Shown piece by piece: positions 49,050 to 53,531 of a stretch of DNA of 56,698 nucleotides. The DNA is from a virus. Where the stretch lies: IMG/VR virus record IMGVR_UViG_3300042698_000010, positions 1-56,698 of that record, one strand, 5' to 3'. The position numbers and the translations under genes are program-made. Position 1 is the first letter of the stretch; each line of letters starts with the position of its first letter. The notes beneath the pieces were generated by a model. That model worked only from the letters and a program-made list of their open reading frames with translations. It had not been told where the DNA came from and made no database searches.

Positions 49050-49271
49050 TCAGCCCTTCTTCGACGGGGTGTTCTCTTCCAGCCACAGTTGCCAGCGCCG
49101 GTCGCGCCGCACCTCGGCCAGGTCCTCGGTGATGCACAGCCAGGCCACGCAGAAGTTGACCAGTGACAGGGCCGCGACGGCCCACCAGTTGCCCCATGCG
49201 CCGAACACGATCAGCACCTGAAGCCCGGCCGATGCGGCCGCGGTGACGCCGAGCAGAGTGCGAGCGTTCAT
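49050..49271 (-). CDS. Small membrane protein, 73 aa
   Basis: ATG 49271 overlaps the resolvase stop. Two hydrophobic segments (LLGVTAAASAGLQVLIVFGA and WWAVAALSLVNFCVAWLCI) and a charged C-terminal helix (EDLAEVRRDRRWQLWLEENT). No family is recognised. Confidence 0.7.
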   Translation of the reverse strand: MNARTLLGVTAAASAGLQVLIVFGAWGNWWAVAALSLVNFCVAWLCITEDLAEVRRDRRWQLWLEENTPSKKG

Positions 49272-49843
49272 GATCCGATTCCTTCCGGCCACTTGACGGC
49301 CAGCAGCGAGTCAAGCCGGGGACGTCCGGCGGTGGGCAGCGGCTGCCCGATGCGGGCGTAGCCCATGGCTGCCAGAGCGTAGGCGTCCGCCATGTCGTAC
49401 TTCCCGTGCGCCACCTTGTGCGCCTTCAGGTCCAGCCCGTGACGCTCGGCCAGGGCTGACACCATCTCTGCCTTGCTGGCCCGGCCGTTGCCCGTGGTGT
49501 AGGCCTTCAGGCTGGTGGGCGCGATCACGGCGAACGGGACGCCCATGCGCCACAGGCGGGTGCGGACCATGAGGCGCAGCCCCGCCAGCTGGTCGACCGC
49601 GTCGCCCTTCGAGCCGTAGGCCGCGCCTTCGATGCAAACCAGGTCGGCGCGCTTGCCCTCGGGCTGCCCGTCCGTCCACTGCGTGGGCGACAGGACGAAC
49701 ATCACGCACTGCCGCGTGAGGCGGTCAAGGCGGGCTTCCAGCCTCTCGTCCGCGGACGTCTGGAAGACGTGCACCGACTGGCCGTCGCTGACGCCGGTGG
49801 ACGTCAGCGACAGGTCCAGCCCTACAACGCGCAGCGGCCTCAC
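49268..49843 (-). CDS. RuvC-like Holliday junction resolvase
   Basis: The 191-residue product has the RNase H-fold RuvC pattern: VVGLDLSLTSTG with Asp10, VCIEGAAYG with the second acid, SKAEMVSALAERHGL, and the late YDMADAYALA pair. RuvC-type enzymes cut branched DNA, which a phage needs before packaging. GTG 49843 overlaps the upstream stop. The neighbours are a DNA-binding protein and a helicase, consistent with recombination work. Confidence 0.85.
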   Translation of the reverse strand: MRPLRVVGLDLSLTSTGVSDGQSVHVFQTSADERLEARLDRLTRQCVMFVLSPTQWTDGQPEGKRADLVCIEGAAYGSKGDAVDQLAGLRLMVRTRLWRMGVPFAVIAPTSLKAYTTGNGRASKAEMVSALAERHGLDLKAHKVAHGKYDMADAYALAAMGYARIGQPLPTAGRPRLDSLLAVKWPEGIGS

Positions 49844-51031: not shown

Positions 51032-52870
51032 TCAGGCGGTCACGTACTTCCCGAAGCGCTCGTCCAGCGCCTTGCTGGCACGGGCCACGGCGATGGCGTC
51101 GGACGCCTCACCCTTCTTCATGCCCTCGGCCACCGCACCGCCCAGTCCGCGCAGCATCTTCAGCTGGCCGTCGCTGGCCGGACCCCGGCGCCAGCTGGCC
51201 TTCCGGTTGTTGTAGGTGTAGCCGGTGTCGGCTGCCAAGGCTTCCAGCGCGGCCACGGCCGTGACCGCATCGGTGGCGCCGCTGTCCAGCCGCTTGACGT
51301 CCACGCTGCGCCCCGACCCGCAGGCAAGCCCGTGGAAGAATCCGCCGTCCGGGGCGGGCAGAAGGAACACGTTCACCTCGTTGCCCACCGGCAGGAACTT
51401 GATCCCGGCCCGAGTGGTCAGCCAGGTGTAGCCAGAGCTCTTCAGCTCTTCGCCCAGGATGTCGACCTCGGTCAGCTTCTTCAGGACCGCGACGTCGACT
51501 TCCTTCGTCTCGATCTGGGGGCCCTCGCCACGGCAGTAGCAGCCGTCCGGGTTCAGCGAGCAGGCGCACGCATCCAGCCCGGTCCCGTCCTGGTCGCCGG
51601 GGCAGCCGCAGCCACAGTCCTCGGAACCGGCGCAGCGGCAGATGTTCGACGGCTTCTCGTGCTGCTCGACACAGCGGCAGCCGCACTGCCGGATGCCGCA
51701 CTTGCAGCGGTCCGAGCAGCCGCACGACAGGCAGTTGCAGTCACACCGGCCCGAGCAGTCGGATTCCAAGTCGTTGACACCGGCCAGGCTGTGCTTCAGC
51801 GAGGCGCCCGCGATGTCCAGGACCAGGCAGTCGCTCTTGCCCGACTCGGGGTGCAGCCGAAGCCCGCGGCCCACCATCTGAATGTAGAGACCGGGGTTGA
51901 GCGTCGGACGGCCGATGATCACGCAGCTGGTCTGGGGTGCGTCAAAGCCCTCGGTCAGCACCATGCAGCTAACCAGGATGCGTGTCTGGCCGGACGAGAA
52001 GCGCCCGTAGATGGCCTTCCGCTCGGTCGACGGGGTCGCGCCCGTGACAACCTCTGCCGAGGCGCCACAGACGGCTTCAAAGGCTTCCGCGGTCCGGGTC
52101 GCGGTGTGGACGTCCGGCATGAAGACGATCGTCGGACGCTCGCTGGCCTCTGCGCACCACGCCTCGGCAATGGCCGTGAACGCGTGGCTGTCTTCCAGCG
52201 CCTCGGCAACGTCCTTCGCGTTCAGGTCACCGGCGGTCACGCGGGTGGACGCCAGGTTGAGGCCCGGAACCTCGATCGACTTGGCGACCGGCGGCACCAG
52301 AAAGCCGCTCTTGATCATCCAGTGAATCTTCTTCGAGTACGCCACCGACTGCCAGACGTCGGGAAGCCCGCCGTCCATGCGGGTCAGCGTCGCCGTGAAG
52401 CCCACGGTGGGGGTGGCCCGGTCGTCCATGCAGCCGTAGTGGTCCAGGACCTCTCGGTAGGACTTCGCGGCGTAGCGGTGGCACTCGTCCACGATGACCA
52501 GGCCGATGCGGTCGACTGCCTCTCGGCGGGCGGGACGGGCCAGCGTCTGAACGGACGCCACGATCACGTCGGCGAACTGGTGCTTCTTCGCGCCCCGGCC
52601 GCCCTTGACGATGGCGGTCCAGACGCCGGGGACCATGGCTTTGATCTTCGCCTCGGCCTGTTCAAGCAGCTCTTCCCGGTGGGCCAGGACGAGCACCCGC
52701 TTCCCGTCCTTGCGCAGCTGATCGATGTGGCTGGCGATCAGGCCGCTGAAGCACACGGTCTTGCCAGCCCCCGTCGGCAGCACGACCACGGGCCGATTCA
52801 CGCCTTCAGCCCAACTGGCATCGACAGCCGCCAGCGCCTGTGACTGGTAGTCGCGCAACTGGAATCCCAT
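51032..52870 (-). CDS. SF2 DEAD/DEAH helicase with 20-cysteine insert
   Basis: The 612-residue product is an SF2 helicase: Walker A PTGAGKT (32-38), DECH box (128-131), TATLTRMDGG, and motif VI QMVGRGLRLH. Right after the second RecA domain, at about residues 368-446, comes a stretch with 20 cysteines in roughly 75 residues (pairs such as CDCNC, CGCRC, CGCGC). The C-terminal half then has a small domain (EVNVFLLPAPDGGFFHGLAC) and a helical end. Such helicases remodel replication or recombination forks. The insert probably binds several metal ions or Fe-S clusters. Confidence 0.9.
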   Translation of the reverse strand: MGFQLRDYQSQALAAVDASWAEGVNRPVVVLPTGAGKTVCFSGLIASHIDQLRKDGKRVLVLAHREELLEQAEAKIKAMVPGVWTAIVKGGRGAKKHQFADVIVASVQTLARPARREAVDRIGLVIVDECHRYAAKSYREVLDHYGCMDDRATPTVGFTATLTRMDGGLPDVWQSVAYSKKIHWMIKSGFLVPPVAKSIEVPGLNLASTRVTAGDLNAKDVAEALEDSHAFTAIAEAWCAEASERPTIVFMPDVHTATRTAEAFEAVCGASAEVVTGATPSTERKAIYGRFSSGQTRILVSCMVLTEGFDAPQTSCVIIGRPTLNPGLYIQMVGRGLRLHPESGKSDCLVLDIAGASLKHSLAGVNDLESDCSGRCDCNCLSCGCSDRCKCGIRQCGCRCVEQHEKPSNICRCAGSEDCGCGCPGDQDGTGLDACACSLNPDGCYCRGEGPQIETKEVDVAVLKKLTEVDILGEELKSSGYTWLTTRAGIKFLPVGNEVNVFLLPAPDGGFFHGLACGSGRSVDVKRLDSGATDAVTAVAALEALAADTGYTYNNRKASWRRGPASDGQLKMLRGLGGAVAEGMKKGEASDAIAVARASKALDERFGKYVTA

Positions 52871-52902
52871 GGGGTTGCCTTTCTCGCGGTTGGTGTGGTG
52901 CA

Positions 52903-52931
52903 ACTCTACCGAAGATCCGTAGATGATGCAA
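52903..52931 (-). promoter_or_regulatory. Promoter, TTGCAT-N17-TAGAGT
   Basis: A recurrent-type promoter for the helicase. It overlaps the 3' end of the HNH gene. Confidence 0.7.
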
Positions 52932-53475
52932 CCCCGATACCGAGAGGGCCCGAGTACCAGTTCAGCTCTGAGAGCAGTAGCACCGACTTCCGGTTGTTGC
53001 ATGCCTTGTGAGTCGGTGCCAAGTTGTCCAGGCAGTGCGCGCCACCACGAGCCAGCGGAATGATGTGGTCCAACTGAATCGGACCTGCCAACGGCTTTCC
53101 GCAGAGGTAACAGTCAGACGCGCTGGCCATGACTTCCGCTTCGTTGACGTCCCCGATCGTTGCACCCGCCTTGACAGCACGCCGCTTCTGAGCCCCCTTG
53201 CGCGCAGCTGCGCGAACAGCTTCGGGATTGTCCGCGTACCGGCGTCGCATCTTGTCGCGGTTGTACTCGCGGGCCGCTTCAGGGTCGGACCAGTACCGGG
53301 CCCGCTGCGCTTCCAACTGCGGAACCGGGTTGTCCGCGTACTTCGCGCGGGCCGCAGCGCTCTTGCAGCTGCGGCACCGGCTATTACGGCCATAGGCGCC
53401 AAGCTTGTTAAGGCTGAAGTCGTCAAGAGGCTTGGCCTCATTGCAGCCGGTACAGACCTTGATAATCCCGTTCAC
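52906..53475 (-). CDS. HNH endonuclease with zinc-finger N-terminus
   Basis: The 189-residue product starts with a zinc-finger-like region (VCTGCNEAKPLDDFSLNK, CRSCKSAAARAKY), has a long basic helix, and ends in an HNH core (DCYLCGKPLAGPIQLDHIIP then NLAPTHKACNNRKS). This is the plan of phage-borne HNH homing-type nucleases. GTG 53475 has GGAAGAG upstream. Codon use and lack of coupling fit a mobile gene. Confidence 0.88.
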   Translation of the reverse strand: MNGIIKVCTGCNEAKPLDDFSLNKLGAYGRNSRCRSCKSAAARAKYADNPVPQLEAQRARYWSDPEAAREYNRDKMRRRYADNPEAVRAAARKGAQKRRAVKAGATIGDVNEAEVMASASDCYLCGKPLAGPIQLDHIIPLARGGAHCLDNLAPTHKACNNRKSVLLLSELNWYSGPLGIGVASSTDLR

Positions 53476-53501
53476 GTCGGCTCTTCCCGAGAGATAACAC
53501 A

Positions 53502-53531
53502 GGATGCCCGCGGTTGCTGCCGCGGGCATCC
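53502..53531 (-). terminator. Terminator hairpin
   Basis: GGATGCCCGCG pairs perfectly with CGCGGGCATCC around an 8-base loop, between two minus-strand genes. Confidence 0.75.

Follow-up and report, generated by a model that had tools for sequence, protein, structure and literature searches.

The closest relative of known structure of the protein considered here is Escherichia coli RadD (YejH; PDB 6jde and 7r7j), in which two Cys4 zinc fingers (Cys384, Cys387, Cys411 and Cys425; Cys434, Cys437, Cys448 and Cys451) lie between the motor and the C-terminal domain (PMC9049331). The second finger needs its Cys437 in vivo, where a C437A mutant fails (PMC9049331); branched DNA is bound by Arg428 in the finger domain and Lys488 in the C-terminal domain (PMC9821108). 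Among cysteine-dense proteins, the two clusters of mammalian metallothionein are M4Cys11 and M3Cys9, and the EZ pre-SET domain holds 17 cysteines in about 80 residues (PMC3447885). Here, we describe a RadD-like helicase encoded by a 56,698-nucleotide stretch of viral DNA (IMG/VR record IMGVR_UViG_3300042698_000010; hereafter, the window), which carries an insert with 20 cysteines at the place of the RadD fingers. This insert is an extreme form of a metal-binding slot already present in the RadD family. It is genuine, unusual and strongly conserved, but it varies a part already known and does not amount to a novel system.

A RadD-like helicase gene and its neighbours

The listed open reading frame at 51032-53002 on the minus strand (656 aa) encodes an SF2 helicase of the DNA-repair type from a Streptomyces phage. 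Its close homologue in phage Geonosis starts at the residue that aligns with Met45, so that M45 (nucleotide 52870) is the likely true start, giving a putative RadD/YejH-like SF2 helicase of 612 aa (51032..52870, minus strand). Its two RecA-like motor domains (residues 45-400; 51803..52870, minus strand) were delimited by alignment and by an AF2 model with pLDDT mostly >85, and contain the Walker A motif (residues 75-82), DECH (172-175) and motif VI, QMVGRGLR (375-382). The frame matches ResIII and Helicase_C in Pfam and the DNA helicase family phrog_16 in PHROGs.

A preliminary description had placed the protein in a UvsW/RecG-like class; this assignment has to be replaced by a RadD/YejH-like one, as RadD was the best match by both sequence and fold. 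The top solved structure was E. coli RadD (6jde; E 9e-37 by sequence), and a 76-sequence profile matched RadD at E 1e-79 versus only 2e-20 for UvsW, while RecG models matched the helicase at only about 1e-6. In fold comparison, residues 46-440 of the AF2 model superposed on RadD residues 2-396 with a Z score of 34.1, and the structural alignment showed 33-35% identity to RadD across the motor domains. The NCBIfam RadD equivalog (NF053632) also ranked first, covering only residues 47-404 with 177.6 bits, which falls far below its curated cut-off of 720 bits; the helicase is therefore RadD-like, not RadD proper. Its SF2 motifs, its two RecA-like domains and RadD as its closest relative make it a member of the broad RadD-like SF2 group.

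The C-terminal domain (residues 508-656; 51035..51481, minus strand) is common to other phage relatives and, modelled alone, gave a confident AF2 fold (pLDDT 86). The C-terminal domain of RadD binds SSB. The model of the domain described here found no confident match in PDB or Pfam, RadD included. The top Foldseek rows were PC4-like single-stranded DNA binders (MoSub1), which were rejected, their E value of 0.2 being too weak. A RuvC-like resolvase gene lies near the helicase (49268-49843), and no RecA gene was found in the window. Directly upstream of the helicase is an HNH/endonuclease VII-like gene (52906-53529, minus strand), a position taken in phage Geonosis by a small gene of DUF6409 type. 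In two relatives, L018 (IMG/VR 3300048912_000251) and L027, the same helicase is interrupted in frame by a 347-aa intein with a LAGLIDADG endonuclease (Pfam Hom_end_hint, 1e-17; Hom_end, 5e-13), inserted in Walker A as PTG/CHRAG...VTHN/SGKT. The HNH/endonuclease VII-like gene is possibly a free-standing homing endonuclease beside a helicase that in a relative is the target of an intein.

Layout and conservation of the 20-cysteine domain

The domain covers residues 416-490 (51533..51757, minus strand) and contains exactly the 20 cysteines in about 75 residues that had been reported for positions 51530-51770. They occupy residues 416, 420, 422, 424, 427, 429, 433, 435, 440, 442 and 444 in the first half and 455, 457, 463, 465, 467, 479, 481, 488 and 490 in the second, with intervening gaps of 3, 1, 1, 2, 1, 3, 1, 4, 1, 1, 10, 1, 5, 1, 1, 11, 1, 6 and 1 residues. 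All 20 fall within residues 413-494, and the remaining 574 residues of the 656-aa frame hold only 10; about 1e-14 such stretches would be expected per protein at its own background cysteine rate (binomial). The described arrangement in CxC runs is borne out by 11 CxC pairs, where shuffled versions of the stretch average 5.0 (P 0.0006), and CC does not occur at all (P 0.001, same shuffles). Hydrophobic residues are indeed few (A/V/I/L/M/F/W/Y, 10/75).

The insert consists of a basic 11-cysteine half followed by an acidic 9-cysteine half. The first (residues 416-444; 51671..51757, minus strand) contains five K/R and two D/E and includes the near-invariant segment CDCNCLSCGCSDRCKCGIRQCGCRC. It is joined by the linker VEQHEKPSNI (residues 445-454; 51641..51670, minus strand), which holds one invariant His (H43 of alignment A1), to the second (residues 455-490; 51533..51640, minus strand), with one K/R and six D/E. 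A GDxDGTGxxD loop in the second half resembles a calcium loop; this reading is doubted because one homologue (L015) is without the second Asp, and the loop is probably just a turn. The insert was poorly modelled by AF2, which includes no metal (pLDDT 38-50), and its predicted structure is unusable.

All 20 cysteines are invariant in 14 distinct homologues, among which TGC and TGT are exchanged at 14 of the 20 positions; together, these two observations rule out a reading-frame artefact. Between the first and the last cysteine, 25 of the 55 other positions are also invariant in these 14 sequences, and the length differs by single residues only. Mean identity is 0.82 in the insert, compared with 0.80 in the motor core and 0.64 in the C-terminal domain. 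The carriers comprise 15 records from 12 named Streptomyces phages, plus 10 IMG/VR contigs, two counts that overlap, as some of the contigs are the same phages. They form one lineage, whose genus, where annotated, is Woodruffvirus. The preliminary description had named homologues that do without the segment as evidence against it; relatives outside Woodruffvirus indeed lack the insert, whereas within the lineage it was never lost among the sequences examined.

No relatives of the insert were found in genome_contigs at pattern-level sensitivity, and there were zero matches in Pfam and PDB. A search of 392 Streptomyces genomes gave a single weak match (L220, E 0.007), which was taken as chance because that place is without a cysteine-rich frame. 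In the literature on Woodruffvirus or metallothionein-like helicases, nothing was found that discusses the domain.

The zinc-finger slot in RadD and in phage relatives

The preliminary description had taken such a domain to be normally absent from the protein's class; however, RadD has its pair of Cys4 zinc fingers in this very position. Counted from the final Arg in motif VI, the insert cysteines stand at +34 to +108 (from Arg382) and the eight zinc cysteines of RadD at +41 to +108 (from Arg343). Given the superposition on RadD described above, the insert starts about where finger 1 (Cys384) starts. The insert does not significantly resemble known zinc fingers, and the RadD-finger spacings C-x2-C-x23-C-x13-C and C-x2-C-x10-C-x2-C are absent from it. 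The common position is observed; the insert may have grown from an old finger or have replaced one.

RadD-like helicases of Mycobacterium, Gordonia and uncultured phages share the motor and the C-terminal domain signature, and mostly have 0-4 cysteines at the slot, with 9-10 in a few. Our survey counted cysteines per 82 residues in 244 distinct RadD-like relatives whose tail is complete: 13, all of Woodruffvirus type, had 20 cysteines, and none had 11-19. Seven relatives had 9-10 (L047, L190, L191, L192, L221, L250 and, apart from these, L234), and the remaining ones had 0-8; most of the 244 have no metal site at the slot. Such helicases can therefore work without metal there. Four-cysteine ribbons or knuckles were also found at the slot, namely CPNC..CYAC in L008, CPTC..CVC in L213 and CPCC..CDFC in L098. 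The cysteine-rich middle segment of L234 is a further, separate one (CQCGQGATLCACAPRRCFSSCMCGGGKPNGAPCGC). Two other relatives, L020 and L021, are without cysteines after motif VI and have a four-cysteine insert inside the first motor domain, before motif II (CRNQQVDEDGNPMGRCNQCSRC and CPNQKTDADGNKLGRCRTCSRC, respectively).

In the core tree, the 8-10-cysteine group (L047, L190-L192) and the 20-cysteine group stand apart, with cysteine-free lineages between them, and an hhalign comparison of the 20-cysteine insert with the other cysteine-rich phage segments was not significant (E 0.065 over 6 columns). The 8-10-cysteine phages were consequently rejected as ancestors of the 20-cysteine form, and the cysteine-rich forms, as far as tree and profiles indicate, arose separately. 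Together, these two results suggest that the slot gains and loses metal sites repeatedly; the 20-cysteine form is the extreme. These phages thus give a natural series of 0, 4, 8-10 and 20 cysteines at one slot, which lets one ask what metal does for a translocase.

Metal binding, function and comparison with known systems

The few hydrophobic residues, the invariant cysteines and the failure of AF2 to resolve the insert point to a fold held together by metal, although the low pLDDT, which fits this reading, would look the same for a disordered segment. The insert very probably binds metal, and the family precedent of RadD makes zinc the likely one; 20 cysteines in CxC runs favour bridging thiolates, so that clusters with shared thiolates are rather probable. 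In the model that we infer, and that we favour with some reserve as to metal, cluster type, stoichiometry, DNA contact and pathway, the zinc-finger region of a RadD-like helicase is replaced by a multinuclear zinc-thiolate module that helps to hold branched DNA. Its 20 cysteines would bind several zinc ions via terminal and bridging thiolates, probably in two clusters of first 11 and then 9 cysteines (for example, Zn4 and Zn3), and metal rather than a hydrophobic core would hold the fold together. The module would do the job of the RadD fingers in linking the motor to the C-terminal domain. Its first half, being basic, would help the helicase to hold on to branched DNA in recombination or in the processing of forks, a role with which the nearby RuvC-like gene is compatible. 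The RadD analogy makes the basic half the likeliest place for such a contact; the acidic second half counts against the model, and direct contact of the insert with DNA is close to an even question, leaning slightly against. A more specific version, in which a new metal-cluster fold of metallothionein size, with about 7 Zn and 20 cysteines, arose in phages independently of the eukaryotic CXC and metallothionein domains, as one of several separate cysteine expansions at the slot, and grips DNA, is rather doubtful.

Two other functions are unlikely to a similar degree. The insert might dock onto proteins: kept rigid by metal and making no contact with DNA, it would bring in a partner from the phage or obstruct a host factor. 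This would suit its restriction to one lineage, its very strongly conserved non-cysteine residues and its acidic second half; however, it has no known partner, and both the RadD precedent and the basic character of the first half speak for DNA. Alternatively, a fused metallothionein-like segment might buffer or sequester Zn or Cu, or sense metal or redox state and switch the helicase. Mammalian metallothionein, which binds 7 divalent metals, likewise has 20 cysteines split 11+9 over its two clusters (PMC3447885), many CxC pairs and few hydrophobic residues, and the likeness drawn in the preliminary description is apt in composition. The equality of 11+9 is nevertheless arithmetic only and no sign of homology; Pfam metallothionein models found no match in the insert at E values up to 10. 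Moreover, the strongly kept non-cysteine positions and near-constant length exceed the need of a mere store, and the insert occupies the structural zinc slot of the family.

An iron-sulfur domain, suggested by the cysteine-rich domains of the SF2 helicases XPD and DinG, is very unlikely: the XPD-type cluster uses four cysteines inside the first motor domain and not after the second, whereas the insert follows motif VI, ferredoxin-type and XPD-type spacings are absent from it, and 20 cysteines far exceed the need of one or two 4Fe-4S clusters. Of the multi-zinc or iron-sulfur domain first proposed, the multi-metal (zinc) site is thus retained as the best fit. No zinc-ribbon spacing fits the insert either. 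The pattern C-x2-C-x5-C-x-C fits at residues 424-435 in 14/14 sequences, which may be chance among 20 cysteines.

If many zinc ions are bound as clusters, this would be an unusual metallothionein-like structural domain for DNA processing in a bacterial virus. Metallothioneins are small free proteins, whereas the insert belongs to a motor protein, in which it forms a conserved domain, and has no sequence match to them. CXC and pre-SET domains (MSL2, LIN54 and EZ proteins) are also cysteine-dense, with Zn3Cys9, and the CXC domains of MSL2 and LIN54 bind DNA; however, these domains are eukaryotic and none lies in a helicase, unlike the phage insert. The CXC superfamily consensus, CX[C/H]X2-13CX4-7CXCX5-60CX2-4CX1-2CX2-15CXN, was matched by 0 of 14 homologues, and the consensus without its terminal Asn was also unmatched in the insert. 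Overall, the zinc-finger slot of the RadD-like family is filled here by a probable metal-thiolate domain, which is expanded and unclassified. E. coli RadD has similar motor domains, the same order of motor, zinc region and C-terminal domain, and a cysteine region after motif VI that is alike in position and length, but fills it with two Cys4 fingers of C-x2-C spacing, where the helicase of the window has 20 cysteines in CxC runs.
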